Assembly (NCBI RefSeq): GCF_965363235.1
Contig: NC_134846.1
Location: 2,547,001-2,611,000 of the forward strand
Direction of reading: 5' to 3'
Source: Mytilus galloprovincialis
Lineage: Eukaryota; Mollusca; Bivalvia; Mytilida; Mytilidae
DNA: 64,000 bases
Of the stretch, positions 9,421 through 58,000 are shown one piece after another. Numbering within the stretch: the first letter of the stretch is position 1; each line of letters opens with the position of its first letter. The position numbers were made by a program, and so were the translations under genes. The notes under the pieces were generated by a model that had not been told where the DNA came from, ran no database searches, and saw nothing but the letters and a program-made list of their open reading frames with translations.

Positions 9421-11128
9421 AGGGGTACAGGGGTAAAGGGGGGAGAGAGAATGAGACCCTTTTGACAACTCCTGGATCTTTACCCGACTGTATTGCTTGT
9501 AAATAAGTTGAATTGTTTTTCTAATAATTCTTTTTCAGTAGGTTTTGAAGTAAGAGAGCACATCGTATCAAGAAATACGCTGACTTTGGTCCAATTTACA
9601 AATGATGCATAAACATTGTGGCTTTAGGAAGTGGAATAAGATTATTTGTCTAGTATTGGAAAGTTGCTTAAAAGAATTACTGAAGTAACACATCAAGACA
9701 TAATCTATCTTTGTTCATTTCTATTAGTGCATTTCTTCTTAACCTAAATTTTGTAAACCTGGTGTGGTGTTTGTTGTCATTTGCTACACGCTACAAAATT
9801 AGAAACAAATACATCGGTTAATCAGTGTTTTTTTCACCCTGTTTGAACTTCCAATAATGCATGCACATGGTGTTGGTAAACAGACTTATTACGCGGTTAT
9901 AATTAAATGTGGTTCCTTCAACCAACATACGTAATAAATCTCAAGACTTTGCACCGTTTTTTTTCTATTTCATATGTATGAAGGTTTGTTGGCTATTATT
10001 AGGATTATTACTTAGTGTTTCGGGATTTGTTTGCTTATACTGTTAGAGCATGGGTCCCTTTTCAAAAGTCTTCAAAATATTGCATTGATTTTGCAAGTCA
10101 TTCTGTATATATTTTTGTTACGCTAATACGCTATGATGGACACTAGGATAAACATTTCACAGCATTGTTTGTCTTTTTGCAGATTGTTCCAATGTTTCCA
10201 ATTCTACTAAAATTCAAGGTTGAAGTTAGAAACAAATTTAGCGTTTGTACTAACAGCTGTAGACGCATTTTTACCAAGTGCATAGTTTGTCAAAGTGTAT
10301 GTAAGAAACAAATGATCAAAACATGTGCACTCTTAGCCGTTTACATCGTTTGTGTTAGAAAGAAATGCACTCTTAATAATCCCTATAAATGAAATGACAC
10401 TTTCTATCTCTAGTCCTTGTAGCATAGTTCATTTCAAGTGAACTTTACTCTGGCAAATCTTTAAGACAGCAAGGGAGCAACCATAGATTACCTTAGCTGT
10501 ATTTGGCAAAACCTTTAGAAATTGTTAGTCCTCCATGCTCTTCAATTTCGCATTTATTGGCCGCCTTTTTAACATTTTCTTTATTCAAGTATCACTGAAG
10601 AGGTTTTTTTTTTAGACCAAACGAGCATCAGGCCCAAATATAAAATTTATAATGATATCCTTTATGATTTTTTTCTGTATTGATTTCATTTTTCTAAAAA
10701 AAAAAAATATCACAACATTGTGTGGATTTGGATATTAATTTTTAACCTTTTTTTGTATAGATTTTTCATGTTTGGCAATTGCAATCATGCATGTTATTTA
10801 TTTCTATATATTTAAAATGTTCCTACTCACTCCTGAAATATAAGATGGAAATCCCCTTAGATAATCATGTAACTTAGAAAGGAGTCTACAGAAGTTAGTT
10901 CTTGTACAGAACATGAATGAACATTTTTGTCACTGGTATAAGCAACAATCAATCAAATAATCAGACATAAGTCTAAATACAAATGATGTTTTTATTTGTA
11001 AAGCACCAAATAAGTATAAATACAACAATAGTACAAAACAATATCTGTAACAATAATATAAAAAAACAGAATCTCAAAAACAACCATAACCCATCATAAC
11101 TTCTATGTTCCACAGACCTAAATCTCTT
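9421..11128. other. Gene-free stretch
   Basis: No coding exon is recognised. At 10480-10660 there is a decayed copy of the hammerhead-bearing repeat seen at 41 and 46 kb (CATGCTCTTCAA and a degraded core). Otherwise it is AT-rich sequence without clear structure. Confidence 0.4.
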
Positions 11129-12800: not shown

Positions 12801-14460
12801 TATGCCCCACCTACGATAGTAGAGGGGCATTATGTTTTCTGGTCTGTGCGTCCGTCCGTCCGTTCGTTCGTTCGTTCGTCCGTTCGTCCGTCTGTCCCGC
12901 TTCAGGTTAAAGTTTTTGGTCGAGGTAGTTTTTGATGAAGTTGAAGTCCAATCGACTTCAAACTTGGTACACATGTTCCCTATGATATGATCTTTCTAAT
13001 TTTAATGCCAAATTAGAGATTTTACCCCAATTTCACGGTCCACTGAACATAGACAAGAGTGCACACACTGAAATGTCTCGCCTTCTTTACTAATCATTGA
13101 TATTATGTTGATACTCCTAAATATAAAGCTTTATTACGACTGTTACATAAACTTAACATGAACCATGAAAATGAGGTCAAGGTCAGTTGAACCATTTGCC
13201 ACGCAGACATGTACAGCTAACAATGCTTCCATACAACAAATATAGTTGACCTATTGCTTATAGTTTAAGAAAATAGACCAAAACACAAAAACTTAACACT
13301 GAGCAATGAACCGTGAAAACCAGGTCAAGGTCAAATAAAACCTGCATGACTGACATATAGATCATAAAATATTTCCATACACCAAATATAGTTGACCTAT
13401 GACATATAGTATTAGATATAAAAAGACCAAAACTCAAAAACTTTACTTTAACCACTGAACCATGAAAATGAGGTCAAGGTCAGATGACATCTCCCCGCTA
13501 GACATGTACACCTTACAATCATTCCATACAACAAATATAGTAAACCTATTGCATAAAGTATGAGAAAAACAGACCAAAACACAAAAACTTAACTATAACC
13601 ACTGAACCATGAAAATGAGGTCAAGGTCAGATGACATCTGCCCGCTAGACATGTACACCTTACAATCATTCCATACAACAAATATAGTAAACCTATTGCA
13701 TAAAGTATGAGAAAAACAGACCAAAACACAAAAATTTAACTATAACCACTGAACCATGAAAATGAGGTCAAGTTCAGATGACATCTGCCCGCTAGACATG
13801 TACACCTTACAATCATTCCATACAACAAATATAGTAAACCTATTGCATATAGTATGAGAAAAACAGACCAAAACACAAAAACTTAACTATAACCACTGAA
13901 CCATGAAAATGAGGTCAAGGTCAGATGACAACTGCCAGTTGGACATGTACACCTTACAGTCCTTCCATACACTGAATATACTAGCCCTATTGCTTATAGT
14001 ATCTGAGATATGGACTTGACCACCAAAACTTAACCTTGTTCACTGATCCATGAAATGAGGTCGAGGTCAAGTGAAAACTGTCTGACAGACATGAGGACCT
14101 TGCAAGGTACGCACATATCAAATATAGTTATCATATTACTTATAATAAGAGAGAATTCAACATTACAAAAAATTTGAACTTTTTTTTCAAGTGGTCACTG
14201 AACCATGAAAATGAGGTCAAGGACATTGGACATGTGACTGACGGAAACTTCGTAACATGAGGCATCTATATACAAAGTATGAAGCATCCAGGTCTTCCAC
14301 CTTCTAAAATATAAAGCTTTTAAGAAGTTAGCTAACGCCGCCGCCGTAGCCGCCGCCGGATCACTATCCCTATGTCGAGCTTTCTGCAACAAAAGTTGCA
14401 GGCTCGACAAAAATGATAGTGCGAGTGGGGCATTCGTGTACTGAGGACACATTCTTGTTT
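12801..14460 (+). mobile_element. Family S repeat split by a tandem-repeat element
   Basis: The left part (12801-13052) begins ATGCCCCACC with an 8-bp hairpin partner GGGGCAT and a (CGTC/CGTT)n stretch at 12846-12895. The right part (14409-14460) ends GGACACATTCTTGTT. In the uninterrupted copy at 38746-39005 these halves are contiguous, so 13053-14408 is an insertion. Confidence 0.72.
13053..14408 (+). mobile_element. Pearl-like element with 147-bp tandem-repeat core (family A)
   Basis: It starts ACAAGAGTGCACACAC and ends with hairpin TGCAACAAAAGTTGCA (14385-14400) and GGCTCGAC. The core is a direct array of about 147-bp units marked by CCATGAAAATGAGGTCAAGG; neighbouring units at 13604, 13751 and 13898 are almost identical. 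Bivalve 'pearl' elements and Helentron-type non-autonomous elements have this plan (minisatellite core, terminal hairpin); assignment is by architecture. A second, inverted copy is at 39844-40879. No coding capacity. Confidence 0.7.
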
Positions 14461-15486: not shown

Positions 15487-18400
15487 CTATGTTCCTGAAT
15501 AATGAATTCTGAGTATTTCTATTGGAATGATATCATCATAGTGGAATGTCTTCTCTTTCGGTGGCTCTACCATCTCATAGGCTAATCCTTCATTGGCTGT
15601 CATAAATATAAATAAAACTTGTAAAATACACTATCAAAAATATCAGTTTAAAATATAATAAAAAAATGTTTTTTTCTTGTGTTATTTTAGAACATTTTGT
15701 TATTCTAGAACATGCGTGTTATTTTAGAACATTTTCTTTTGACAATACATTTTATCTGACAGGGCAAGTGCTTTTGAATTGGTGAGTAAAAAATACTTCA
15801 GATATATATATCCAAGTATAAAGTGAGAGAATAATGTTTCTCAATAACTAAAATGAGTGCAAAACAAACCCTTGAAGTCTCCTGGATATATGATGTTGTG
15901 GGACGATAACTTTCTTTTTATTACCTGCCTCTAAGTGCAGGATTTTCTCGCTTTGATGAAGACACATTGGTCGACTACGACTGTTTTCTTCCATTTGGTC
16001 AGGTTGTTGTCTCTTTGACACATTCCTCATTTCCATTCTCAATTTGATTTAACTGCTTTGAAGCTTACAGCAGCAATTTTAAGTCTTTGGCATTCCCTGG
16101 AGATTTGCAATCATGCTGCAATGTGATCACTGGCCTTTCTGATTAAGACCATGTAGTCTGATGTGTGGAAGTTTCAATCATAATTTATTTTTCAGGGTTT
16201 TATAAGAGTTCAAATGCTATAAAGTTATAAACTACAATATATTTAGTACATATGTACTTCTTACCAAGATTTATAAGAAAGAAATCTCTTGTGTCTTCAT
16301 TTCTTACTGTAGACGCTATATAAGCTATAGGTACATTATTTTTCTTTGGTTTCAGAACTTTGAGCAATATTCTGACTAAAGATGGAATCACTTCCTTATC
16401 ATACACAACATCTGAAATACACAAATAAACAACTTCTGAAAATACACAAATAAACAACTTCTGAAAATATATGAATAAACAACATCTGAAAAATCACATA
16501 TAAACCACATCTGAAATTACAAAAAAGGATCTAAAATTAAAGTCATAAGAAACGAGTGACCGGTGAAAAATAATATTTTCCAATTCTTGAACCAATGCAT
16601 ACAAACATCATAAACTTAGTCTTCTGTTCAAGAATTTTTCATTTTTTCCGCATAAATTTCGTATAATCGTCAATTTTTTTTTCAATCGGTCAGTGTTGTG
16701 AAAATATGGCAGGTAATTAAAACTCATGTTTTGAAGCCGAAGTTTAACGATTGTCACCTGTTTGTCAACAATCAACAAAAAATAAACAAAAAATAAACAA
16801 AAAAGCATGGAAATTGAGCACGTGTTTAACATGTAAATTCAGATAATAGTTTATTTTAAGGACATCCATGCATATTGCGATCACCAGATTTTTACGAGAT
16901 GGGTCACACTGAGGTCACTTTGCATACGGAAAATATGTCGGGGGAATTGCTTCCTGGAAAGAAAGTAAACTTCTTCTAAATATGAATAAATTAAAGAATT
17001 TTTTTCAGAAAAAAGTATATGTACATAAGTTTTATAATGAAAACTATCCATTGAGTTATAAAACAACATATGCATATTTTTTTTTAATTTGAGGTTTCAT
17101 ATGACTTTAAATTGCAAGAGGTTTAAGATATTTTTTTTAAAATATTACTTGTTTTTATAACCAGTCTTTTGACTGGTTATAAAATTATTAAAAAACAAAA
17201 CATTTGAAAAAACATCAATAAACAGCATTTGATCATGGGAATACACAAAAAAAACAGCTTTGCTTTTTTTTCTTAACATATAGGCACTGTCTTATAGAAA
17301 CCTAACAATCAATAATCAAAACTCTCTGCATTCTGTGGTTAGTTTTTTTTTGTTATAAATTGAACATTAACATTTGAACAAATACTTTGTACATGAAAAG
17401 AAGTCCCTGACCCTGAAAATTCAATTTTAAAGATTCTTTCACTTAACAACTTGGAATTTAAAACATTTCAATTGAAATGTTAAAGTCATATGAAACGAGT
17501 GAGTGGTGAAAAATAATGTTTATCCAATTCTTGAACCAATGCATGTATATATCATAAACTAAGTCCTCTGTGCACGATTTTATCATTATTTTCGCAAATA
17601 TATCATATAATCGTCAATTTTTTTTCTCTCTGTTTGTTTTGATTTAACAAATATGGCTGCTCATTAAATGCCGTGTTTTGAAGCCGAGTTTTACCGATTG
17701 TCACCTTATAGTAAACAAATCACAAAAAGCATGGGTATTGAGCACGTGTTTAACATGTATAATTAGATATTTGTTTATTTCAATGACAGATCCATGCGTA
17801 TTGCGATCACCGGATTTTTACGAGGAGGGTTACGCTCGGGTCAGTATGCATACGGAAAATATGTCGGCGAATTGCTTCCTGGAAGCAAGCAATTAAAAAT
17901 AAGTAAACTTCTTCTAAATGTGGACAAATTAAAGAATTTTCCTCAGAAAAAAGTATATGTACATAAGTTGTATAATGAAAACTATCCATTTAGTTATAAA
18001 AAACATATGCATATTTTTTTTTAATTTGAGGTTTCATATGACTTTAAATTGCAAGATAAAAACAATGCAGTAAAATATAAAACTAATTTATACACCCTTA
18101 AACACAGGAGAAAAGCTCAGAACTGTAATCAAAATTAGATATTTATATATACCTGCTGCTAATATTATATCTGGCGCTAGTTTGTCTAGAAAATCATGAC
18201 TGCCTTTACTCCAGTCTAATTGTAGAAGACTAATTCTATTGTCACAACAAAGTTTATAACTTTCTACATAATCTCCTTCTTCCCAGAATTCTTCATCTGG
18301 TGTAAAAATACCAATGTCTAATTCATCGTCAGATTCTTCCTCTAAGTCGTCTGCCGAGGCAGAGGACGTACAACTTATTTCCATAATGTCTGATGACTGT

Positions 18401-21400
18401 TCCATACCTATATCTTGTTTCACACTGAGTTGACGTCTGATGCTACGAATCATTTTCCGTCTTTTTAATGTGACAGTCTGATTTTCTGGTAAGATGGCTT
18501 TAATAGCACAAGAATTGGGATCAGAATTAAAATTTATCTCTAGATTTACCATTAAAAGATATAAGACTTGTGGATGACAGTCTGAAAATGTCAGCGATCT
18601 TAATTTACACTGTTTACAGATAGCTATTCCTGTAAGTCCCAGTCCACTTCCAAGCTCTAAAACCTTCCTACAATAAACAGGATAAATGCACATTTTCAAA
18701 TATTAAACTTTACATCATCAACAAATATCAAGGGAATATGGAACTTTTTTTTCAATTTTATCATGAAATATATTACAACAAATGGAAGTTTTTAACGACC
18801 TTGACTGGCTATACAGCTCTTGCACGGTCGGTTGAAATATATTAGAGAATATATATACAAGCTACTTGAATGCAATACTTTACAGAATGTAAAAAGTTGA
18901 ACTTTGATCAAGGGAGAAAGTATCCATGGGATACAAATGATGCCCCTGCTTGCACATATAACATAACCCCTATAAAGGGACATCACTTAAGAAAGGTAAA
19001 AGTGCCCCTACCCAAATTGGTACTTTTTTAACTACAAACTACAAATGTACATGTAATTAGAGTATGTCTGATGGTGTATATTTTTTGTAGTACAACTGTT
19101 AGGTATCAACAAATGATATCATCATGATCATAGGAAGTCATTTTCAAATTTTATCACTTCATTTCATTAATTAATATTGAATAGAAATTAATAACTTTCT
19201 TTCATCATGTTCATTGTCGTGACTATCAATTTTTCATGGATTAAGTTAGAACAATAGTTGTTTAAATAATTGATTCTGTGAGTTTGTCAAATTCTGCATA
19301 CTGGCCTATAGAAAAATCTCATCTCATCGAAAATGTTTAAATTGTGGTTCACCTACACACAATGAGTACCTCACAAGTAATCAAGAATTTTATGTATGTG
19401 TTAAACTTCTATACAAAATCAGTGGAATCCTTACCTATTTTCTAGCAAGCCGCTGTTCTCAAATGCCCATTCTGCTAGGTGTAAGGCAGCCTATAAGAAT
19501 CAAAATTTTTTATACATGTATAGTTCACACAAGGTCATTCAGTTAAAATCAATATTGCTTTTGTTGAGTTAATCACTGCTTGAAAACCTACAGATTCCTC
19601 AGGGTATAGAAATTGATTAGAGTTTCTTTATCTGCCTGGTTCAACTTCTTCACAAGAGAGAACTGTTTGGCTGTGTATATTTACTACTACTACTGTCACA
19701 ATGGATATGTTCAACCAATGCCACATGAAGGGTATTGCCAAATTTTCACCAGGCAAAATATCTGCCTCTACCAAACATGGCCTCATTTTCAATGAACAGT
19801 CAAAATTTTCTGTTTTCATTGTGGGTCGTGACCCACTTTACAGAGTCAACCCCTTAAATGTATATTGGTTCGATCTCATTCTGAAAGTGCATAAAATATT
19901 TACCTGTTCAAAGTCAGGAACTTTTAAAGAGTCATCATATAGTTATGTCACATCTTAATTTTTTTTTATTTGAAGAATTTGGTTTCTCTTCTATTTTATC
20001 CTTAGACATATATATACCAGTATTAGAAGGCTAAATGTGTGAGTTGTTACATCAGGATAAAATATAAAAAAGAAGATGTGGTATGATTGCCAATGAGACA
20101 ACTATCCACAAAAGACCAAAATGACACAGACATTAACAACTATAGGTAACCGTACGGCCTTCAACAATGAGCAAAGCCCATACCGCATAGTCAGCTATAA
20201 TAGGCCCTGATAAGACAATGTAAAACAATTAAAAGTTTGTTTACAGTTGTGACAAAAGCTCTCTTGGTTCATGTTAGTATTTGTTCATAAAGGTGATACT
20301 CATATTCTCCATCAAGTAACTACATTTCCCATAATGCCTCTCTCTCTGACTTACCTGCCATGTGTTCAGTCCAGTTGTTCCTTGGGATATGAGGTGAATT
20401 GATTCCTGTAAGCTAACTGTTTCACCATTAGGCTGCAATTAGAAAAAGAATAAATAAAAAATGAAACTGGCAGAACAAAGATAAAATCACAAAGAATTTT
20501 CTGAAATTTTTTATTTTTACCTCGAATCAAATGTTGAAGACTGCTTTTGGTATCTGATTAAATGCTATAATCCTTATGATTCTTTAATTTTGAAATCATC
20601 AATTGCAAGCTTACATATTCTGGTTTAAAAGATATTATTATGAGATATAAAAACAGTCAATACATGTATTTACTATTCTGATAAGATGATCAACATAATT
20701 TCATAATGATGAATAAAGAATGTTGACTCATTAGATTAGTACTGAAGCACCAAAAAGTACACTCCACAGTAGCCTTATCTGAATGATATTTGGTGTTTAC
20801 TTCATGAAAACCCTACACTTTTTCTGGCAAAAAATTATGTCATCATAATGAGATGCTGTTACAAGTAGCAGTTGTAGTTGTTTGTTTAACCTCAGTTTCA
20901 AATGGGATTTGCAGGGGAATCCCTGAATAGAAAGTACATGTACATGTAGGTATCTGTTTGTGTCAGAAATGTAAATCAAAACATGTCTACAATGTGACAT
21001 CATGGGTATTATAATTAAAACAAAAACAAGGGAACCTTGTAGAAACCTGATTTTACCAGATGATATGTTTTGTAACAAAGGATGTCATCTTCGTCTTCAG
21101 TCTGTTGTAAAAGGTCTGTGTAAACCTCGTAGATTTCATCACACATTTCAACCTCACTTTCCTCTAACTGAAATTGACAAGTTACATATCAAAACTCTAC
21201 AAGTATTTGCAATTATTCCTAAATGATTCATGCCCAGCTACAGGTATATTTGTAGATACTCTATTTTGGTCCTGGCAACCTCCTACACTTGAAGTCATGC
21301 CATGAGCTATCTTTAATCATATTTCATGTGATGTTCAGTTAAAAATTTTAAATATTTTATGATCTAATGAGTAATTAAGAAAACATGTATGTATGTTTAT

Positions 21401-33000: not shown

Positions 33001-36000
33001 CGGCACTTTATAACTAAAACAGGGGTGTGTTTTTTTCACATGTTGCACTGTATCACAAAAACGCTTCTTGATTATGACTTAAAACTTTAAACACTTCTTA
33101 GTTATATTAATATCAATATCTGTATACTTTTTGGTGATGATTCAAAATTTCATTTTTGAGTTATTAGTATTTTGTAAAAAAGGGGGAGGGTTTATTTTAC
33201 ATGTTGTGCCGTATCTCAAAAACGATTTATGATTATTGCTTAAAACTTTACACACTTCTTTGTTCTATTAATCTAAAGATCTGTATACTTTTTGGTGATT
33301 ATTCAAAATTTTATTTTTGAGTTATTGAGTATTTTGTAAATCGGGAGGGTTTTTTACATGATGCGCCGTATCTCAAAAATAAGTTATGATTATTGCTTAA
33401 AACTTTACATACTTCTTTGATATATTAATCTAAAGATCTGTATACTTTTTGGTTTTGATTCAAAATTTAATTTTGGTAATATTTAGTTTTTGTAAAAAAA
33501 AACAGGGTGGGGGTTTCACATGTCCCGCCGTGTTTCTAAAACAATATATGGTTATTGCTTAAAACTTTCTCATAAACTATTTATGATAATTGCATAAGAC
33601 GTCGGGCATATCATGCGCTCATGGCGCAGCTGTTTATTAGATCATATTCAAGTTTTGATTTTGTTGATTCACATGAAGTATTTGCATAATATTACAACTT
33701 AAAAGTAAGCACCCAATTATGAAAATTTTAAGATAAGTCATTTAACAGTTGACTTACTTGTTTTAAAAAAAACTAGAAGGGAAAATCATTAATCACACGA
33801 TAATCAGTGTGTATTGAATTCCTGTGAACGTATATCTTTATCGTGTATTAAAAGAAAATGATGTAATTTTGAAAAAAACAAAAAGGTATATGTACATTGA
33901 TATTTTGTTATTTGTTTCATGATGAAGTCGGAATTCATTCATTGGTATTAATCATCATGATTATATTTCTTATAGATCTCCAAAAAGGAGGAAGAGAAGC
34001 CCAACACCTCGACCAACCAAAGTTCACATCGGACAGCTGACTAGAAATGTCAACAAAGAGCACATTCAGGAGATATTTACTGTCTATGGTACTCTGAAGA
34101 ATCTAGATGTTCCAGTAGAGAGAGTTCATCCAAACTTTATCAAAGGATATGCTTACATAGAATATGAAAAACCAGATGATGCAGAGAAAGCTATTAAATA
34201 CATGAATGGAGGTATTCTAATTTTCAGAGCTATTCCATTTATTAGATCTATGCATGAATTTATTTATTGATCTAATTTACATATGATTTTACAAATGTAT
34301 AAATTCTAGATTACACTATAAATTCTTCAAAAGTTTTATAAACATGAAATCCCTCAGTAAATGTGGGAATGTTCAGTCACATTTTAAAATTTCAACATTT
34401 TTGTTCAGTCTTTGAATTGATGGTATTCTACTTCCCTTGGGAACTAGTTGATGAAACATTTACTTTACTAAGTAATTTGCATTTATAATTGAAAGTATTC
34501 ATAGAAAAGCTTTATTTTCAGGTCAGATTGATGGACAGGAAGTGACAGCTGCTGCAGTACTGCCACCTAGAGTGGTGTCCAGACCTCGTCGCAGTCCTCC
34601 TCATAGACCGCCACCCAGGTGGGAGAATAGGGAAAATAGGAGAGGAGGAGGAGGAGGTTCCCCTCCCAGAGGATCATACAGAGATCGCAGGAGGTACACA
34701 AATATACTTAAGGCCTTTTTTTTTTAATTAGTTGGTTTACGGACAACTAGTGTCAAAGGTTAGGGTCGGAGGAGGTAAAAAAAATAAAAATAAAATAGCA
34801 ATCTTAGATTTTTTTTTTGTTCACGTATAACTGTTCTGAAAAATTTGAGTTGGAGGGAAAAAAAAAAAAAAATGCTGTTCATTCATGACATTACAGGGGT
34901 TGAGGAGGAGAAATAGTTTAGCTCTTATCTTGATATGCTTTGCATTTGATGGATGGATGGTCAATTGTTGTTTAATGTCTAGTGGCTAATCAGATGCATA
35001 ATTAGGATGAGAATATGATAATGAGAAATGAAATGCTAAACTGACACACTGAGCCAGAATTTAAATGTGGTAGCTCACAAGGTAACAGTTCCCCCAAAGA
35101 TATGTTACCTTACCCAAACACATTATTCTGACTCCTTTAATAATTGCAATTGCAGCGTGCTTGGCGAAGAAGCAGCAGATACCAATTTTTAAGTCTTTGA
35201 TTTGACCGGGTCAAGGTTCAAACCCAAGATCTCTCACTCTCCAGGTGAACACAATACCATCACATTTAAGGTGCACGTGGTCTTCACGTATGAATATATG
35301 TGCATGTTTGACCCAAAAATCTTTTGAGGACAATATACTTGACATAAACAAATTTCTTTGATTTATGAAATGTTTGATAATCAACTGTGTTCATGATCCT
35401 ATCATGCTGATGAAGAAATAGCAATGTACCAAAGTTTGACTAAAACACATATTTTGTTCAGCTTTGCACTTTTTTCTGGAGGTGCTCCTTCATTTACATC
35501 AACAAATATAATTTTTGCCCCAAAGGACGCAAGCACTTCTACGGGTGTACTGGTAGGGGTGTCTGCCCTAGTTTTGTTTGGTGGCGAAACTGTTTGTACC
35601 TTGACAATGGCAACATTTTCATCAGCCATATTGTCGAATATGGCATCGCCGATTGTTTGCTTAGGTTTGCATTTGATAAAAGTGCTCTCAGTACGTTGAC
35701 CATCAAAGTTAATATTCAACTGAAAGTAGATGAAGCCGTCAGACTCCATGGTCCTCCCTCGTTGGGTTTTTGAATTCGTCTGCGTCATTTCGAAGCTTTT
35801 CAAAATACGCCGTTCACTACAAACGCTTTATTGACACAGACAAAACGTTTTGGAACGCCTCGGATTTTTTTATTCACAGCACTCGAAAAATCGGGTCGGC
35901 GGAATAAAAAACAACACGAAATCAAAATTTTAATTTTATTTCACTTTTAAACAAAATCGGGTCGGCGGATCCGTAAACCAACTAATTAAAAAAAAAAGTC

Positions 36001-39843: not shown

Positions 39844-40879
39844 AGCCTGCAACTTTTGTTGCAGAAAGCTCGACATAGGGATAGTGATCCGGCGGCGGCG
39901 GCGTTAGCTCACTTCTTAAAAGCTTTATATTTTAGAAGGTAGAAGACCTGGATACTTCATACTTTGTATACAGATGCTTCATGTTACGAAGTTTCCGTCA
40001 GTCAAATGTCCAATGTCCTTGACCTCATTTTCATGGTTCAGTGACCACTTGAAAAAAACTCTTATTATAAGTAATAGGATAACTATATTTGATATGTGCG
40101 TACCTTGCAAGGTCCTCATGTCTGTCAGACAGTTTTCACTTGACCTCGACCTCATTTCATGGATCAGTGAACAAGGTTAAGTTTTGGTCTCAGATACTAT
40201 AAGCAATAGGGCTGGTATATTCGGTGTATGGAAGGACTGTAAGGTGTACATGTCCAACTGGCAGGTGTCATCTGACCTTGACCTCATTTTCATGGTTCAG
40301 TGGTTATAATTAAATTTTTGTGTTTTGGTCTGTTTTTCTCATACTATATGCAATAGGTCTACTATATGTGTTGTATGGAATGATTGTAAGGTGTACATAT
40401 CTAGCGGGCAAATGTCATGTGACCCTGACCTCATTTTCATGGTTCAGTGGTCAAAGTTAAGTTTTTGAGTTTTGGGCTTTTTATCTAATACTATATGCCA
40501 TAGGTCAACTATATTTGGTGTATGGAAATATTTTATGATCTTTATGTCAGTCACGCAGATTTATTTGACCCTGACCTCATTTTCACGGTTCATTTCACAG
40601 TGTTAAGTTTTTGTGTTTTGGTCTATTTTTCTTAAACTATAAGTAATGGGTCAACTATATATGTTGTATAGAAGCATTGTTAGCTGTACATGTCTGCCTG
40701 GCATGTTTCATCTGACCTTGACCTCATTTTCAAGGTTCATTGGTCTTTGTTTAGTTATCTTGGTTAATGTTAAGTTTATGTGACAGTTGTAATAAAGCTT
40801 AGCTTTATACCTAGGACTATCAACATAATATCAATGATTAGTATACAAGGCGAGACATTTCAGGGTGTGCATTCTTGTT
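39844..40879 (-). mobile_element. Pearl-like element (family A), inverted second copy
   Basis: Mirror of 13053-14408: begins with hairpin TGCAACTTTTGTTGCA and CGGCGGCGGCGG, has about six units marked CCTCATTTTCATGGTTCAGT, and ends GGTGTGCATTCTTGT. Non-coding. Confidence 0.7.
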
Positions 40880-41175: not shown

Positions 41176-41325
41176 CTTGCTCTGTATTGACAGTTTTTAA
41201 ACAAGAAAACCAAGTGCTGGATTTATGATACAATAGTAATCCAATCCAGTAGTTCACCAGAGATATATCATGAGAAAAAGTATGTGAAGGGCTTAAGTTG
41301 TATGTACTGGTAATAGTTACCAAAT

Positions 41326-41369
41326 GTACCAGATGTGTGTTTCATCTACATCAGGCTCATCAGTGACTC
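41326..41369 (-). ncRNA. Hammerhead ribozyme, decayed
   Basis: Minus strand: stem I GAGTCA/TGGTAC, core CTGATGA, stem II region with mispairs, GAAA, cleavage triplet ATC. The core is kept but stem II is weakened, so self-cleavage is doubtful. Confidence 0.5.
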
Positions 41370-41591
41370 GGATCAAAATAGTAGAACGGCAAATATGTAC
41401 TGCTAAGGTAGTATATGCCTGTGACAAATCAAATTTTTTTCGAAAAAGTTCAAAGTTTTGTTAATTTTTTTTATTAAAATGACCATATAATTGATATTCA
41501 TGTCAACATCTAAGTGCTGACTACTGGGCTGGTGATACCTTCGGGGTCGAAACGTCCACCAGCAATGTCATCGACCCAGTCGTGTAAAAAA

Positions 41592-41635
41592 ACGCCAGAC
41601 GCGCATTTCGTCTACACAAGACTTATCAGTGATGC
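41592..41635 (-). ncRNA. Hammerhead ribozyme with mutated core
   Basis: Minus strand: GCATCA, then CTGATAA where CTGATGA is required, stem II GTCT/AGAC, GAAA, triplet GTC, TGGCGT. The core change should abolish cleavage. Confidence 0.55.
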
Positions 41636-41710
41636 TCAGATCAAAACAGTTATAAAGCCAAACAAGTACAAAGTTGAAGAGCATTTAGGACCTAAAATTC
41701 TAAAATGTTG

Positions 41711-41839
41711 CAGGGGCGGATCCAGCCATTTTAAAAAGGGGGGTTCCCAACCCAGGACAAGGGGGGGGGGGGTCCAACTATATGTCCCCATTCAAATGCA
41801 TTGATCGGCAAAAGAAAGGGGGTTCTGGATCCGCCAATG
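41711..41839. mobile_element. 129-bp MITE with TGTTG duplication
   Basis: Ends CAGGGGCGGATCCAG and CTGGATCCGCCAATG, target TGTTG at 41706-41710 and 41840-41844. The uninterrupted version of the target is visible in the array at 46 kb. Confidence 0.78.
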
Positions 41840-41999
41840 TGTTGTGTCAAATACGGCTAAGGTAATCTATGCGTGGGATAAGAAAATCCTTAGTTTCTCA
41901 AAATTTTTGTGCCAGCGCAACTGAACGTTGGGCATATTGTTTTATTTTAATTGTCCGTACATACCTCCAATTATGATAATCATATACAGAATCTTCAGA

Positions 42000-43790
42000 G
42001 CGAACAAAAATGTTAACTAGTAAAAATTCAAAGGCAGTTAAGAGGCTCCCACAGGGTCAAAAACGACCTGCGACCTCTGGGCTTTTTAGAGGCGACTTCC
42101 GACCTGAGGGCCTTCTAAAAACGACCTGCGACCTGTAAAATTTGGAAAAAACGACCTCCGATCGACTTCCGTCCTCTCTGTCGGGAAAAACGACCTGCGA
42201 CCTATACATTTCCCTTAGAAATGACCTCTCGACGAATTTAAAAGCGACCTTACGACCTGAGGGGGTATCCTGTGGGGGCCTCAGTTAAAGTATCAAAGCA
42301 AATCTAATTGACATAGTTCATTTCTTTGTTGTTACTTAGAAATGACCTAAAACAGTTTGAAATATATGTTCGCATTCTGACTTTAAATGCCCATACTGAA
42401 GTCGTCATTATTGAGCATATTGATAGACAATACAGCATCGAAATATCTAAAAGTGTTTTTCAATTTTTGCATCAAATGTTGTTTCATTGGGTCTTTGCTG
42501 ATTTTAGTCATAAATTGTAACTCATAACAATTAATACAGAAACAGGTCCGCAATGAGTGGTGCATATTTATTCCCCATTGTAATTCCGATAATTATAGAC
42601 ATAATCTTCATAACGAACAAAAATGTTATCTAGTAAAAATTCAAAGGCAGTTAAAGTATCAAAGCAAATCCAATTGACATAGTTATTTTGTTTGTTGTTA
42701 CTAAAAAAAACACAACAGTTTGAAATATATGTTCGCATTCTGACTTTAAATGCCCATACTGAAGTCGTCATTATTGAGCATATTGAGAGACAATACAGCA
42801 TCGACCTGTTTCTGTATTGTTATAAGTTACAATTTATCACTGAAAGCAGCAAAGACCCATCATCGAATTAACATCTTATGCAAAATTTAATAACTAAAAT
42901 TGAGAATGGAAATAGGGAATGTGCCAAAGAGACAACAACCCGACCATAGAAAAAAAACAACAGCAGAAGGTCACCAACAGGTCTTTAATGTAGCGATAAA
43001 TTCCCACACTAGATATGTCGATGCTGTTGTGGTTTTTTTTTTAGTAACAACAAACAAAATAACTATGTCAATTGGATTTGCTTTGATACTTTAACTGCCC
43101 TTGAATTTTTACTAGATAACATTTTTGTTCGTTATGAAGATTATGTATATAATTATCGGAATTACAATGGGGAATAAATATGCACCACTCATTGCGGACC
43201 TGTTTCTGTATTAATTGTTATGAGTTACAATTTATGACTAAAATCAGCAAAGACCCAATGAAACAACATTTGATGCAAAAATTGAAAAAACACTTTTTAT
43301 ATTTTTGGATGATGTATTGGCTTTCAAAAAAAACGACTTCAGTATGTACACCAAAGATATTAATCCTGCCAAACTGAATTGAAACAAAGCCAATACTAAC
43401 AATGAACACTGCCCTTTCTTGGGTCTTAACATATAATGTCTTTAATACCAAAATTTATGATAAAGGAGATGATTTTTCATTTCCTATTGTTAATATCTAC
43501 TTTTAGATGTGACGTTTCTTAGTCACCATCTCATGGTGTTTATATATTTCAACTTGTTCGATTCGCTAGTGTATGTAACAACGTATTTTATTTTAAAGAA
43601 ATAAATCTCTGCAATATTGCACCAGGGTTTTAGTTATCACAAACTATTCAAAACATTTACTAAATTTTATCATCGGTACAAGCTAGGACATCATTGGTTA
43701 ATATAAATTAACATGTAGACATCTTATACGTTCATGTATTTCACATCCAATCTTTTATGTTAATATTCTCTACAAAGCACAAAAAAGACG
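42000..43790. mobile_element. Rearranged Penelope-like reverse transcriptase fragments
   Basis: Pieces of the same polymerase family occur in both directions: peptides ELQFMTKISKDPMKQHLMQK on the minus strand near 42500 and on the plus strand near 43240, and a later piece near 43600-43790 (TKFYHRY). A 3' tail copy (42895-43010) lies between. This is a duplicated and inverted fossil, non-functional. Confidence 0.65.
42042..42282. mobile_element. 241-bp MITE with 6-bp duplication
   Basis: Ends GAGGCTCCCACAGG and CCTGTGGGGGCCTC. AGTTAA is duplicated (42036-42041, 42283-42288), and a paralogous empty site with single AGTTAA is at 42649-42654. Inside is a degenerate tandem of AAAACGACCTGCGACCT. 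Non-coding. Confidence 0.82.
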
Positions 43791-44092: not shown

Positions 44093-45815
44093 GCAAGTTT
44101 TCAGTTTCTCTGGTTTTGTGATGATAATGGTATCCGAGACACTTGAGATACAATTTTATTTCTCTGTTTGGTGATGATTATGGTATTTGAGATCCTTGAG
44201 GAACTGTTTTATTCTTGATTTACGTGATGATCTTGGTATCTGAGATAATTGAGGTGCAGTTTTATTTCTCTGGTTTGGCGATGAATATGGTATCTGAGAC
44301 ACTTGGGGGGATTTTATTTCTATGTTTTGGTAATGATAATGGTATCTGAGACAATTGAGGGACAGTTTAAGTATTCTGGATTGGTGAGGATTTTCGTATC
44401 TGAGATACAAGACAACTCTATATCTCTGGTTTGGAGATGATTATGCTATTTGAATTATTTGAGGGATAGTTGTATTTCTCTGGTTTGGTGCATGATGATG
44501 ATTGAATCACAGATTCTCGAGAAACAGTTATATTTCTCTGGTTTGGTGGTGATTATGGTATCTAAGACACATGACGGACAGCTTTATTTATCTGGTTTTG
44601 AGATAATAATGGTATCTGAGAGACTTGAGGGACAATTTCATTTCTCTGGTTTGTTTATTATTATGGCATATGCGATACTTGAGGAACAGTTATATTTCTC
44701 TTGTTTGCCGGTGATAATTATGGTATCTGAGATACATTAACTTTTTGTACTTGATGGATAGTTTACCTTTAATTTCTCTGGTTTGGTGATTGTTATGATA
44801 TCTGAGGCACTTGAGGAACAGTTTAAACTTTATTTCTTTGATTTTTGTGCTGGCTATGGGATCTTATGGTATCCGAGACACTTTATTGAGTTTTATTTTT
44901 TTTCTGCTTTGGTGATGATAATGGTATATGAGACACTTGAAGAACTGTTTTATTTCTCTTGTCTCGTAATGATTATGATATCTGAGATACTTAAAGGACA
45001 GTGTTTTTTCTCCTGTTTGGTGATGATTATGGTATCCCAGATTCTTGATGAACCGTTTTATTTCTCTGGTTTGGTAATGATTATGGAATCCGATATACTT
45101 AAGAGACAGTTTTATTCCATCTGATTTGGTGATGATTATGGTGTCTGATATACTTGAAAAACAGTTTCATTTCTCTCTGTTTGATGATGATTATTGTACA
45201 TGAGACACTCCAGGGACAGTTTTATTTCCCGGTTTTGGTATCTGAGATACTTGAGGAACAGTCTTATTTTTCTGGTTTAGTGATGATAATGGTAACTGAG
45301 ATACTCGAGAGACAGTTTTATTTCTCTGGTTTAGTGATGATAATGGTATCTGAGGTACTAGTACTTAATGGAGTTTTATTTCTCTGGTTCGGTGATGATT
45401 GTGATATCTGATATACTTGAGGCAGTTTTATTTCTCTGGTTTGGTGATGATTATGGTAACTGAGATACTTGCGTCAGTTTTATTTCTCTGCTTTGGGGAT
45501 GATTATGGTATAAAGGGTTGTTTTATTTCTCTGATTTTGTGATGATTATGGGATCTGAAACACTTGAGGAATAGTTATATTTTTCGGGATTGGTGATGAT
45601 CTCAAATCTGAGAAACCTAAAGAACAGCTCAATTTCTCTGGTTTGATGATGATTATCGTATCTGAGACACTTGAGGGAGAGTTTTTTTTATTTCTATGGT
45701 GGTTTGGGGATGATTTTGGTACATGTATCTAATTAGACACTTTTTGGTATCTGAAATACTTGAGGAGCAGTTTTATTTCCCTGGTTTGGTAATGATGATG
45801 GTATCAGAGACACAA
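44093..45815 (+). repeat. 54-bp minisatellite, about 30 units
   Basis: Direct repeats of a 54-bp unit built on TTTATTTCTCTGGTTTGG, TGATGATTATGGTATCTG and AGACACTTGAGGGACAG. Because 54 is a multiple of three, long stretches stay open and give an 18-residue peptide repeat such as MVSEILEEQFYFSGLVMI (44450-45411). Units are diverged and stop-containing overall, so I do not call it a gene. Confidence 0.85.
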
Positions 45816-46049
45816 TTTTGGAGATGTTGACTCAATGCTGATCTTTTCTTGCAATTTAAATTCAATCTCTATCTTTTATAGCTTTCATGATAATAGACAA
45901 AGAAAAGAATGGTAAAACAATGGTCATTCACATACAAAAAACTATAAGTTTTCCAATAGTATCAACTGGGAATGGATGGCATATCAGATACAGATCTATA
46001 CATGTAATCTCTATATACATTGTATAGCTTTTTTTTAGTTTATAGACAA

Positions 46050-46490
46050 TAGTTTTCAAAAGTACCAGGATTATAATTTTATACGCCAGACGCGCGTTTC
46101 GTCTACATAAGACTCATCAGTGACGCTCAGATCAAAATAGTTAAAAAGCCAAACAAATACAAAGTTGAAGAGCATTGAGGACCCAAAATTTCAAAAAGTT
46201 GTGCCAAATACAGCTAAGGTAATCTTCTCCTGGGGTAAGAAAATCCTTAGTTTTTTCGAAAAAAGTTTTGTAAACAGAAAATTTATAAAATGACCATATA
46301 ATTGATATTCATGTCAACCCCGAAGTGCTGACTACTGGGCTGGTGATACCCTCGGGGACGAAACGTCCACTAGCAGTGGCATCGACCCAGTTGTGTAAAT
46401 AGTTTTCAAAAGTACCAGGATTATAATTTTATACATGTTTCGTCTACATAAGACTCATCAGTGACGCTCAGATCAAACTCGCATTTTACT
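46050..46490 (-). mobile_element. Retrozyme-like tandem repeat, 341-bp period
   Basis: GTTTCGTCTACATAAGACTC occurs at 46096 and again 341 bp later at 46437, each preceded by AAAGTACCAGGATTATAATT. One complete unit and the start of the next are present. The first boundary holds a full hammerhead on the minus strand; the second lacks the stem III/cleavage part. No coding frame. Closely related to 41321-41915. Confidence 0.68.
46083..46126 (-). ncRNA. Hammerhead ribozyme with intact core
   Basis: Minus strand in order: GCGTCA (stem I), CTGATGA, GTCT-TATGT-AGAC (stem II), GAAA, CGCGCG (stem III, tiny, two-base loop), cleavage after GTC, TGGCGT (stem I partner; pairs GU, CG, GC, UG, CG, AU). All invariant hammerhead bases are present. 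The minimal stem III is the type known from Penelope-like elements and retrozymes, which often act as dimers. Confidence 0.75.
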
Positions 46491-52000: not shown

Positions 52001-55000
52001 ATGAGTATTAAATGAAGGTTGACAACTTAACAGCTTGATTTCCATTTATCATAGAATAATCTATTTCGACCAGTTTGGCATGAATCTAGGTCACCTGGTC
52101 ACAAATACGGAAGTCTCATCATGGCAAAGTCAGCAAAAAGCAATTGACTTTAAAAAAAAAAAAAAGTTCAACAGGTAGCACCTGCCTTAATAATGTTAAT
52201 ATAATTTAAAGTATTCGTAACGGTTTCAATTTTCTGGATTTGTTATCATGGTTTAAAATTTATTAGATCTTGATTGATTTTGGGCAATATGGAAATACAT
52301 CATGTACATATGTAACATTCTTAAAATTCCACAGTTCTTTCGAGAATTTCTAGGATTAATATCTATCCTGTCATGCCTATCCTGTGATCAAATGATTCAT
52401 CATGTTCATGTAGTTCCTCTATTAAATATGCAAAGCCAGCAAAGATAACATTTTACATTTTATACATGGTATAAATCGGATAAAACATGTAAATCTAATA
52501 ACATATTTACAGAGATATACTGTTTGTATGTCCATGTATCATTATATAGACTGGTCATGGTAGTTCTGTTCGGTAGAATTTTTAAACACACTGGATTAGA
52601 GCAATACACAAAGAACCAGGTGCTCCGCAGGGCGCAGCTTTATACGACCGCAGAGGTCGAACCCTGAACAGTTGGGGCAAGTATGGACAAAACATTCAAG
52701 CATGATACAGCTCTGAATTTGGATTGTGATCAAATTTTTGACATTACATGGTTTTTTTTTACACAAAACAAATGCCAAGATTTTACAAATCAATTAAAGA
52801 TTTCTTCTTCAAACTTTTTAAATCTAAAATTAAATAGTTGACACAGCATAGGTTTCTGACACAGAATGAATGTGGTCTAATGAACTTAAAAGGTTTTTTT
52901 TGCCTTTGAGCAAATCACTATGCTGTTGAATATTAATCCTCTCAAAAAAATGTTTGAAGAAATTTTCTTTTTATTTATGAAATCTGAAATGAGAAAAATT
53001 TAACCCCCCCCCTTTTTTTTCACATCCCCGTTTCCCTTTTTCAAAACTGATATCAATTCAAATTTCTAATGGAGTTTGCAACAATAACTACTCATTTAAA
53101 TACATCATAAAATATTAAGATGTAAAAAAACTGCTTGTTATCACTGAATGGTAAAGATTATTTAAATTTATCAGTTGGTAGTAAAAAGTGTATATACATT
53201 GTATATTGTATATAACAAAGATTTAAGTTGATTCTGGACAAAGAAAGATAACTCCAATTAAAAAAAATTCTTGCTATTGCACAAATAGGATATTTCTTGC
53301 TTACTATTCTGGACAAAGAAAGATAACTCTAATTAAAAAAAATTTGCTATTTCACAATATTGTGCAATTAGATATTTCTTGCCATTGCACAATACTGTGC
53401 AATTGAAAAGACTTGCTATTGCACAATACTTAATATAATAATTTTAGATCCTGATTTGGACCAACTTGAAAACTGGGCCCATAATCAAAAATCTAAGTAC
53501 ATGTTTAGATTCAGCATATCAAAGAGGCCCAAGAATTCAATTTTTGTTAAAATCAAACTTAGTTTAATTTTGGACCCTTTGGACTTTAATGTAGAATTTG
53601 AAATTTGAAAACAGGACCAAAAATGAAGAATCTACATACACAGTTAGATTTGGCATATCAAAGAACCCCAAGGATTCAATTTTTGATGAAATCAAACAAA
53701 GTTTAATTTTGGACCCTTTGGACCTTAATGTAGACCAATTTGAAAACTGGACCAAAAAAACTTCAATAATCAAGAATCTAAGTACATTTTTAGATTCAAC
53801 ATATCAAAGAACCCAACCGATTCATTTTTTGTCAAAATCAAACTAAGTTTAATTTTGGACCCTTTGGACCTTAATGTAGACCAATTTGAAAACGGGACCA
53901 AAAGTTGAGAATCTACATATACAGTTAGATTCGGCATATCAAAGAACCCCAATTATTCAATTTTGATGAAATCAAACAAAGTTTAATTTTGGACCCTTTG
54001 GGCCCCTTTTTCCTAAACTGTTGGGACCAAAACTCCCAAAATCAATACCAACCTTCCTTTTATGGTCATAAGCCTTGTGTTTAAATTTCATAGATTTGTA
54101 TTTACTTATACTAACATTATAGTGCGAAAACCAAGAAAAATGCTTATTTGGGTCCCTTTTTGGCCCCTAATTCCTAATCTGTTGGGTCCTAAACTCCCAA
54201 AATAAATACCAACCTTCCTTTTGTGGTCATAAACATTGTGTTTAAATTTCATAGATTTCCATTTACTTAACCTAAGGTTATTGTGCAAAAACCAAGAAAA
54301 ATGCTTATTTGGGCCCTTTATTGGCCCCTTATTCCTAAACTATTGAAACCAAAACTCCCAAAATCAATCCCAATCTTTCTTTTGTGGTCATAAACCTTGC
54401 GTCAAAATTTCATAGATTTCTATTAACTTAAACTAAAGTTATGGTGCGAAAACCAAGAAAATGCTTATTTGGGCCCTTTTTGACCCCTTATTCCTAAAAT
54501 GTTGGGACCAAAACTCCCAAAATCAATACCAACCTTCCTTTTATGGTCATAAACCTTGTGTTAAAATTTCATAGATTTCTATTCACTTTTACTAAAGTTA
54601 GAGTGCGAAAACTAAAAGTATTCGGACGACGACGACGACGACGCAGACGCCAACGTGATAGCAATATACGACGAAAATTTTTTCAAAATTTGCGGTCGTA
54701 TAAAAACTTGTACATGTTTACATATAATGTAATACAAACTGTATGTAATTTGGTAAATTTGGAAAATTGCACCAACATTGTGATTGTATACCTGTGGCTA
54801 TCAAACCATAAATATATTGTTATATCTTAGTAACATGTAGTTTTTCACAAATTATATTGGTACATGTAACCAAAGGAATCTATGTAACAATGTAAATGGC
54901 TAGAAATTTATGTATTACTGAAAAATTATTACACCAGGGTTTTCGATATCACAAACTAGTCAAAACATTTACTAAATTTTATCATCGGTATATAAAGGAT

Positions 55001-58000
55001 ATCATTCGTAAATATAGCTCAACATGCAGACTTCTAATACGTTCTGGTATTTCACATCCATTTTTTTATGAAAATATTCTTTATAAAGCACACAAATGTC
55101 AGTATTCACCTCGGAAACTAACAAAACCTTTGAATAGACTTATTAAGAAGGGATATAGTTACGATACTGTTGTCAGGTCATTAAAGATTGCATATTTTGG
55201 AGTTAATATTGTTTCTGATTCACTTATAGGGTCTTTGCATCGGAACTAAACACATTTATTAAAAACCAGTTGTTGGCATGACACAGGTTATGTTCTTCTC
55301 ATACATGTTATGAATATGATGGTATGATACTAAACCCCTAAGGGGAAGGATTGTGTCTGATATTCATATGATGAAATCATAATCTTTCAATCAGTTTAAT
55401 TGAAGTCTGGAGCTATCATGTCAGTTAACTGTTAGTAGTCTGTTGTTATTTATGTATTATTGTCATTTTGTTTATTTTCTTTGGTTACATCTTCTGACAT
55501 CAGACTCGGACTTCTTTTGAACTGAATTTTAATGTGCGTATTGTAATGCGTTTACTTTTCTACATTGGCTAGAGGTACATGTACAGGGGGAGGGTTGAGA
55601 TCTCATAAACATGTTTAACCCCACCGCATTTTTGCGATTGTCTCAAGTCAGGAGCCTCCGGCCTTTTGTTAGTCTTGAATTATTTTAATTTTAGTTTCGT
55701 GTGTACAATTTGGAGTTTAGTATGGCGTTCATTATCACTGAACTAGTATATACATATATATTTGTTTAGGGGTCAGCTGAAAGACGCCTCCGGATTTCTT
55801 GCTACATTGAAGACCTGTTGGTGACCTTCTGCTGTTGTTTTTTCTATGGTCGGTTTGTTGTCTCTTTGACACATTCCCCATTTCCATTCTCAATTTTAGG
55901 ATTCAAAATTTTGCCATTTTGGCCAAGTAGCCATTCTCTCATTAAAAATTTTATAAATTTTCATTGGCATTGCACAAAGTCGTGCATTTGATGATCACTT
56001 TTCAGCAGGCAATTTATATTTTTTTCAGTTTCAGATTTATACATGTAGAACAATTAATGCACACTGTTGTGACTGTCATGACTGTCAAACTTTTCAAAAT
56101 CTCCATGGGTGAATATGCAAGTGGACCTTATGCTCCTCTTATAATTTCATATGTTTTCTTATTCTACCAATGTATTGTTTGAGTGCTTCAATACCCTTTT
56201 ATGGTTGTACTATGTAAATATAAAAAAGAAGATGTGGTATGATCATGAATGAGACAACTTTCCAAAAGAGACCAAATAACACAGAAATTAACAACTGTAT
56301 GTAACTGTACAGCCTTCAACAATGAGCACACCCAATGTACATTTATATAATTAAGAATTTTAAAATTGACAACTTGAACATTCCTACATTGTCCTATTAA
56401 GGGAAAATATCATCAAAATTTCATTATACACAAAAGTATGTTTGGGCTACATGTACAATGAACATGTTCATTAATTCTACTCCCAATCATCCTGCTTGAT
56501 TTCTCCAAAGCCAATGACACAATGCCCCACAAGAGACTCCTCCAAAAAATTGACTACTACAGAATACGTAGAGTAACACTCAGGTGGATACAAGACCTCC
56601 TAACTTTTCCTAAGCAAGAAAACACAATCCGTATTACTTGAAGGTCATAAATCCAACCCCCTCAGGGGTGTCTCAGGGGAAGACCGCCTCACCATGGCCT
56701 ACAAAATCACCAATAGATTGGTAGATATTGACCCCTCAAACTTATACAAACCCGGAGATTTACAGATCAGAGGAGGCCACCGCATAAACCAACAGCATAC
56801 ATGTACTCTAAAACACCAGTACAGGTACACATGTACTCCTTCTTCCCAACACCAACCAGGGAATGGAACACACTACATTAGAAGAGTTCAAGGCCAGCCT
56901 TACCATCCTGCCAGAGGAACGTGACAGGAGCTTCTCACACCTAGAACTCTGTAGATCCCAGATGTTTATAGTTTTAATTTGTAAATAATAATTACTGTAA
57001 ATAGTTACTGCTGGTTTTAATAATTGAGGAGGGAAGGCCTCATGATTTTACGAGCAAGGCTTTTAAAACAAGACAAAAGTAGAACTGAAGGAAGCCTAAA
57101 GGCCCTTGGGCTGATATTGGTGTCTCGAGATGATATAACATATGATACGGATTTTTCCATGTATTATTCTCTATGTTACTTGGATGGAGAAGCCTTAAAA
57201 GAACTGCTCAATTACTTATCCAAAGCACCTAGGTTACCTTATAATTTAAAAATATTTTGTTTATTATTGTATTTTTTATAGTTGCATTTAGTGTGACAAA
57301 AAGTATGAAAACTTGACGTTCGTGACGTCACATGTACATACCGAACAATGACGTCATTCAATAAATTGTCACGCCCGAATGACCGTACCTATTTTGAGGA
57401 AATTTTTTTCTTAAGCTTACAAAAATAAAAACTGACTATGTAGGAAAAAAAAGAAAAAAAAGTAGGGGTGTGATAAAGGGTATGCGATAAAGGGTAGGGG
57501 TGTGATAAACATTGATAAAGGGTATGCGATAAAGGGTGCGCATCAAAGTTGTGCGATATGGATTAAACAGCAGGACAGCAGGCTATTTATCAAATATTCA
57601 AAACTACTGTATGGACTACTAAACATTATATATATTTATAGATATAGGAAGATGTGGTATGAGTGCAAATGAGACAACTCTCCATCCAAGTAACAATTTA
57701 TAAAAGTAAACCATTATACAAATGTAGGTCAAGGTAGGGCCTTCAACACAGGGTATACTTATAGTGTTCTCCTCAAGCCGATATGACGCTGTGGTCCTGC
57801 AGCCCCTTAATAATATTTTTCTTAATTCCTGCAGTGCATTAATTAGCAGCTGTCCCTTAATACCTGGTCTTTTTATTTATAAATTTTTGAATTGTGAACT
57901 ATTCAAGCTTTTTGTTTCTACATGCCCTAGGCTATGTTTGTAACTTAAAAGGGGGGTGGTACATTTGTTTCACTGTCGCTTCCCCTTTTACTTGCAATTA

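Follow-up and report, generated by a model that had tools for sequence, protein, structure and literature searches.

A direct repeat with a hammerhead ribozyme at its boundary, lying in a 64,000-nucleotide stretch of Mytilus galloprovincialis DNA (the window), raises the questions of what kind of element it is and how such a non-coding sequence finds its way back into the genome. The preliminary description of the locus had taken it for a retrozyme-like dimer that relies on a Penelope-type reverse transcriptase. We find that the element belongs to the non-LTR retrozymes already described from mussels; what is new here is the anatomy of the insertions, most of which combine a shared 3' end with variable numbers of laps.

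Delimited against sibling copies, the retrozyme insertion occupies positions 46048 to 46477 on the minus strand (430 nt, about 1.2 units), with its 3' end at 46048 and its 5' end, at unit phase 340, at 46477. Identical direct repeats of 41 nt and 37 nt recur, start to start, at offsets of 341 bp (46096/46437) and 350 bp (46048/46398), respectively. The 341-bp repeat of the preliminary description is thus real, and "dimer" is too strong a word for an insertion of only about 1.2 units that holds one intact and one broken ribozyme rather than a tandem pair of working ones. The broken hammerhead lies in the 5' partial repeat (46398–46477, minus strand, from the sequence and per-lap alignment), where the minus strand has AT in place of GCGCGTCTGGC and both stem III and the cleavage triplet are gone; positions 46432–46483 score 25.0 bits against Hammerhead_3, which has a gathering score of 48.5. 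No stop-to-stop frame of at least 100 aa overlaps 46048–46477, so that the insertion is non-coding and, having no long frame for a reverse transcriptase (RT) and GIY-YIG coding region, is not an autonomous Penelope-like element. Its GC content is 37%, and that of the 356-bp reference unit is 38%. Because the 5' hammerhead lacks stem III and the triplet, the window copy would not be expected to release a monomer by itself, and it appears to be a non-autonomous, non-coding, 5'-truncated retrozyme. A conserved stretch in the middle of the unit, GTGGACGTTTCGTCCCCGAGGGTATCACCAG..., lies at 46298–46391 (minus strand; 69 distinct segments from the fetched loci and the window). A 41-nt piece of it occurs exactly 3,629 times genome-wide, its consensus fold is weak (-9.2, with a covariation term of 0.11), and in one copy (L024:1720-1825) it carries about 13 C in a row, against 4 in most copies.

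The intact type I hammerhead spans 46083–46126 on the minus strand and has the invariant CTGATGA, GAAA and GTC together with stem I (six pairs, counting wobble pairs), stem II and a stem III of minimal length, much as the preliminary description had recognized; we take the cut to fall after GTC, between 46089 and 46088, by the usual hammerhead rule. The Rfam model Hammerhead_1 matches it with 33.0 bits (E 2.8e-6 when 751 bases are scanned, 2.4e-4 for the whole window against 4,227 families), 1 bit short of the curated gathering score of 34, and a scan at the gathering threshold returns no match. The best Hammerhead_1 match in each of the 16 sibling loci scanned with cmscan, from 90 loci fetched, likewise stays below 34 (31.7–33.3 bits), the 26 matches with E <=0.01 in these loci ranging from 28.2 to 33.3 bits. 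The Rfam cut-off therefore fails to separate this retrozyme family from noise, and annotation at that cut-off would miss the scanned copies, which lie just beneath it. The preliminary description had held that a score below threshold would speak against the ribozyme; the score is literally below it, yet the siblings fall equally short and the match is beyond chance. It had also named as adverse the lack of any genomic copy with both an intact core and a tandem arrangement, and such copies exist, since L001 and L021 each carry three full-scoring hammerheads in tandem.

A core-pattern scan of the loci and the window yielded 34 distinct ribozymes, of which the 31 of length 44 entered a pairing test and three of other length were left out; core conservation is built into this set because the scan pattern demanded the core. 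In the alignment, 93.8% of pair cells are standard, and 4 of 12 pairs are changed on both sides, the double changes all being contributed by two members of a single related family and hence reflecting few events. No shuffle out of 500 equalled the alignment in covariation score or in percentage paired, while 24 of 500 reached four doubly changed pairs and 25 of 500 the number of pair types; in slid controls of the alignment, 17.3–46.5% of cells were paired, and one of these controls also has four doubly changed pairs. In a related family (copies L067, L042, L031 and L004), the triplet is ATC and the changes in the ribozyme stems come in matched pairs; L067 has this family in tandem. The hammerhead is absent from the minimum-energy fold of the 93 nt surrounding it, a fold less stable than those of 194 of 200 shuffles (z 1.68).

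In the genome searched (1.385 Gb, 331 contigs), a 39-nt core occurs exactly 7,343 times and its reversed control not at all, and a looser hammerhead pattern gives 20,573 matches against none for the reversed pattern. A search of a phage collection gave no matches, and neither did a similarity search across the genome, probably from the skipping of common words. With a type I hammerhead with an intact core, a unit within the 150–450 bp range, a GC content below 50% and many copies, the family has the features of non-LTR retrozymes, and the preliminary description was right in kind: the unit is about 350 bp long, lacks coding capacity and carries a type I hammerhead, and it is present in thousands of copies, many of them in tandem. 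M. galloprovincialis is reported to carry about 5,000 type I hammerhead copies, mostly in repeats of about 350–390 bp (PMC7229834, Cervera and de la Pena 2020), and the non-LTR retrozymes of that account resemble ours in hammerhead type, unit size and the thousands of copies. Compared by description, the window family is probably this published family or a close one. By analogy with the published mussel retrozymes, which are described as cleaving more slowly than the coral's and as forming abundant circles (PMC7229834), RNA of the window family would be expected to cleave itself and to circularize.

How the insertions end bears most directly on how they arose. Using as locus probes the ribozyme core (with stretches from its match list) and one distant stretch, we delimited 92 elements in a detailed set of 80 loci of contig C1 and the window copy; with overlapping loci merged, they fall in 63 loci plus the window, or 64 sources. 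In 62 of the 92, including the window insertion, the 3' end lies within 0–3 nt of ...GGTAC[C/T]TTTGATAACTATT, with up to four substitutions allowed; the motif finishes ...AACTATT, and the elements continue for 0–3 nt past it. When two copies of a local duplication are removed, 60 of 88 elements keep this main 3' end. It corresponds to unit phase 73 and the predicted cut to phase 32, which places the end 41 nt past the cut; in the window copy, this segment (46048–46088, minus strand) reads ...GGTACTTTTGAAAACTATT. Genome-wide, 4,115 of 14,147 exact end motifs (29%) run on for 12 nt into the unit, compared with 4,379 of 5,979 (73%) when the same exact continuation is scored at a control point inside the unit; by arithmetic from these continuation rates, element ends account for about 60% of the exact genomic end motifs. 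The 30 elements without the main end motif comprise related families with ends of their own (CTATGATGAGTTTAT..., GGTACCGTTAATT...), short fragments, and a handful of copies from the main family with a different 3' end, among which L007 and L059 end near phase 51. We saw no simple-repeat tail common to the 62 elements beyond the 3' end. Judged by their ends, the insertions thus stop at a fixed internal site downstream of the hammerhead, as in Penelope-like elements.

The 5' ends behave differently. Among the 62 elements with the main 3' end, 61 have their 5' end inside the fetched locus, and the 59 left after dropping two duplicates range from 84 to 1,499 nt, equivalent to 0.24–4.2 laps of the 356-nt unit. 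Together, the shared 3' end and the variable 5' ends point to reverse transcription of a circular or multimeric RNA from a single internal position, and the insertion ends suggest that reverse transcription would start at the shared 3' site. The 5' ends are not scattered evenly either: 14 of the 34 elements of at least 300 nt start within the ribozyme core, where 3.7 would be expected if starts were uniform (P 6e-6, for an expectation that ignores the length distribution), and 9 of these 14 start at phases 24–37. Copying seems to have halted within the ribozyme or shortly beyond it. Simple run-off on cut RNA does not fit as the source of this cluster, because several starts, those of L013, L060, L039, L078 and L044, lie 2–4 nt beyond the predicted cut. 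A scar at the cleavage/ligation site was likewise considered and rejected as a general feature, since the stretch missing from the window's 5' copy is mostly kept in the internal copies of the other elements aligned.

Within arrays, units resemble each other more than they resemble units elsewhere (95.5% identity over 20 pairs within arrays versus 92.9% over 190 pairs between arrays), and the nearest relative of a unit lies in its own array for 16 of 26 units and in another array for 10. Unit lengths are equal in 5 of the 11 arrays with at least two full units and unequal in 6. Spacings were also compared in 29 arrays copied by hand from among the matches listed, with arrays that have skipped units left out: within arrays, 11 of 16 comparisons give equal spacings, as opposed to 14% of the 406 comparisons made between arrays. 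This likeness fits repeated reading of one circle and also fits local duplication or linear multimers; that insertions of every length have the shared 3' end speaks for reverse transcription.

At the target, the signature of insertion is faint. The longest word common to both flanks averages 5.27 nt in the 59 elements and 4.90 nt in shuffled pairs, a small excess only, and no clear target-site duplication was found in this set; four insertions into known sequence suggest, by eye, duplications of about 0–5 nt. Inverted repeats at the flanks are not in excess (4.80 versus 4.92), and a preference for AT-rich targets is not evident, the flanks being 73% and 69% AT and their surroundings 68–69%.

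We propose a model in which tandem copies would be transcribed, their ribozymes would cut the RNA into monomers, and a host ligase would close the monomers into circles. A reverse transcriptase, having cut the target DNA, would begin copying at the fixed internal site and run for 0.2 to more than 4 laps before stopping, often in the ribozyme; the polymerase would most likely come from a Penelope-like element. As an overall account, from tandem transcription through ribozyme cutting and circles to reverse transcription from a fixed internal site, most likely by such an enzyme, we consider this model likely to be correct. In its most specific form, animal retrozymes would insert by target-primed reverse transcription: a Penelope-like enzyme would start at one internal site about 41 nt past the cut and pass any number of times around a small circular RNA (rolling-circle reverse transcription), and the ribozyme would have two roles, producing the circle and setting the usual stopping point. 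We offer this form tentatively, as a reading that may well be right although we stop short of calling it probable.

Other explanations have to be measured against the same data. It is scarcely credible that a hammerhead-like sequence arose by chance in an unrelated repeat: the narrow miss of the Rfam cut-off and the poor thermodynamic fold speak for it, and the genome-wide counts, set against zero in the reversed controls, and the paired changes speak against it. We regard it as very unlikely that the family is a hammerhead satellite DNA and that its arrays expand through slippage or unequal exchange, with reverse transcription contributing little. Local duplication would also produce similarity within arrays, and long arrays do exist near C1:28.98 Mb and 29.33 Mb among the matches listed, although their layouts are nearly alike and they may be duplicates of each other. 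A satellite of this kind does not, however, account for dispersed insertions from 0.24 units upwards, single sub-unit copies included, that have one 3' end at any length, nor for L001 and L089, which interrupt copies of an RT-like element whose sequence resumes beyond them.

The remaining alternatives keep the retrozyme and change its enzyme or its template. LINEs and SINEs, too, combine a fixed 3' end with 5' truncation, both of which are seen here, so that the same element might have been moved by a LINE-type instead of a Penelope-like reverse transcriptase. We hold this to be unlikely; the absence of a common simple-repeat tail in 62 elements and of clear target-site duplications in 59 argues weakly against it, because LINEs vary. 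The account of the animal retrozymes leaves LINEs open and gives target-site duplications, where present, as longer than 4 bp (PMC7229834), which is in favour of a LINE-type enzyme. Alternatively, a linear multimeric transcript may serve as the template, with ribozyme cutting and circles as mere side products. The unequal unit lengths in 6 of 11 arrays agree with such a template, as do the five 5' ends 2–4 nt beyond the cut, where the site seems to have been uncut, and ribozyme mutants of the anole element are reported to be without effect on insertion in vitro (PMC11167929). The greater likeness of units within arrays than between them, which fits one circle but does not prove it, and the equal spacings within arrays among the matches listed count against the linear template, and we consider it doubtful, if a serious possibility.

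Pieces of an RT-like element lie in the window itself, where the preliminary description had noted pieces of a Penelope-type polymerase. A 5'-truncated copy of an RT-like element, with the C-terminal coding part and the 3' UTR, lies at 54902–55907 (plus strand; 91.6% identity to L084 over 1,016 columns) and is not part of the retrozyme. An older fragment lies at 43037–43784 (plus strand; 80.7% identity to L084 over 777 columns), and there are further pieces at 41969–42757 (minus strand), 42803–42893 (plus strand) and 42892–43009 (minus strand), with 79–96% identity. A protein search with 54896–55246 (117 aa) returned 20,358 first-look candidates; of these, 150 were scored, and the 149 besides the window's own copy are 94–96% identical. 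The L084 frame contains FDFSTLYTTL, GIPMGTNCAPL, YLDD and PFLD, which we take to be RT-like and Penelope-like motifs, and since Pfam, NCBIfam and PDB sequence searches did not recognize the protein, the Penelope-like label rests on this motif reading. The 3' end of the family, ...TCAATTTTATT in 3 of 5 copies compared, likewise finishes ATT. Behind the RT-like stop codon, at 55307–55372 (plus strand), stands a SECIS-like match of 26.9 bits (cut-off 35); L082, L084 and L085 have matches of 28.0–32.3 bits, all below 35, and L083 has none. The RT-like protein may be a selenoprotein. In its great abundance and in the SECIS-like element behind the stop codon, the family is like Naiad-type Penelope-like elements, and an assignment to Naiad again rests on motif reading.

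Sequence common to the retrozyme and the RT-like family is limited to short, weak matches in the six copies compared (best E 0.024), and a simple pattern finds no hammerhead in those six copies. Template-switch chimeras between the two were considered and rejected: a joint pattern occurs four times in the same orientation and never in the opposite one, and the candidates establish no link. The RT-like element lies on both sides of L089 and also of the trimer L001, which adjoins RT-like coding sequence; at the left of L088 stand 24 nt of the RT-like element, the left flank of L090 is similar by eye, and L087 has no RT-like element at its left and is ambiguous. The reliance on a Penelope-type reverse transcriptase proposed in the preliminary description therefore stays plausible and is now somewhat better motivated by the fixed 3' end, although neither sequence nor chimeras tie the two elements together. 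A Penelope-like polymerase is the best candidate for the helper.

Penelope-like elements have been named as strong candidate helpers of retrozymes (PMC7229834), and the closest precedent is the green anole element PAc, whose Penelope-like enzyme is reported to initiate reverse transcription internally (PMC11167929). According to that report, PAc resembles the mussel retrozyme in having a hammerhead in its repeat, fixed internal starts downstream of the ribozyme, and genomic ends on those sites. It differs in encoding its own protein, the retrozyme being non-coding; in its commonest start, about 85–92 nt past the cut by arithmetic from the same source, as against 41 nt for the retrozyme end; and in its preference for ATT and AT-rich targets. 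Plant LTR retrozymes are alike in being non-autonomous and in forming hammerhead-processed circles, and are described with type III hammerheads, LTRs, a primer-binding site and 4-bp duplications (PMC7229834) in contrast to the type I hammerhead here. The excerpted text of PMC7229834 attributes to mussel retrozymes neither a fixed 3' end nor variable numbers of laps nor 5' stops in the ribozyme, and no fixed 3' end of animal retrozymes is described in the titles and abstract openings listed by literature searches. A 2020 review stated, in its excerpted text, that metazoan retrozyme repeats have no conserved motif that would reveal the helper retrotransposon machinery (PMC7761336). The 3' end common to most copies would be such a helper signal: it names the site on the RNA where a candidate polymerase should start, and it thereby makes the route of animal retrozymes back into the genome testable.

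Several other features share the window. A second, older and interrupted retrozyme at 41312–41903 (minus strand) has the same kind of 3' end (...GGTAACTATT) and degenerate ribozymes and adjoins pieces of the RT-like element, and a diverged retrozyme-related remnant, about 72–74% identical, lies at 10482–10671 (plus strand). Near the retrozyme insertion is a long degenerate 54-bp tandem array (44096–45689), and tandem arrays with a 147-bp period are found at 13159–14069 and 40194–40745, their units being, by eye, reverse complements of each other. Pfam matches mark pieces of host genes, an RRM domain at 33926–34267 (plus strand) and a lysine methyltransferase domain at 18088–18699 (minus strand).
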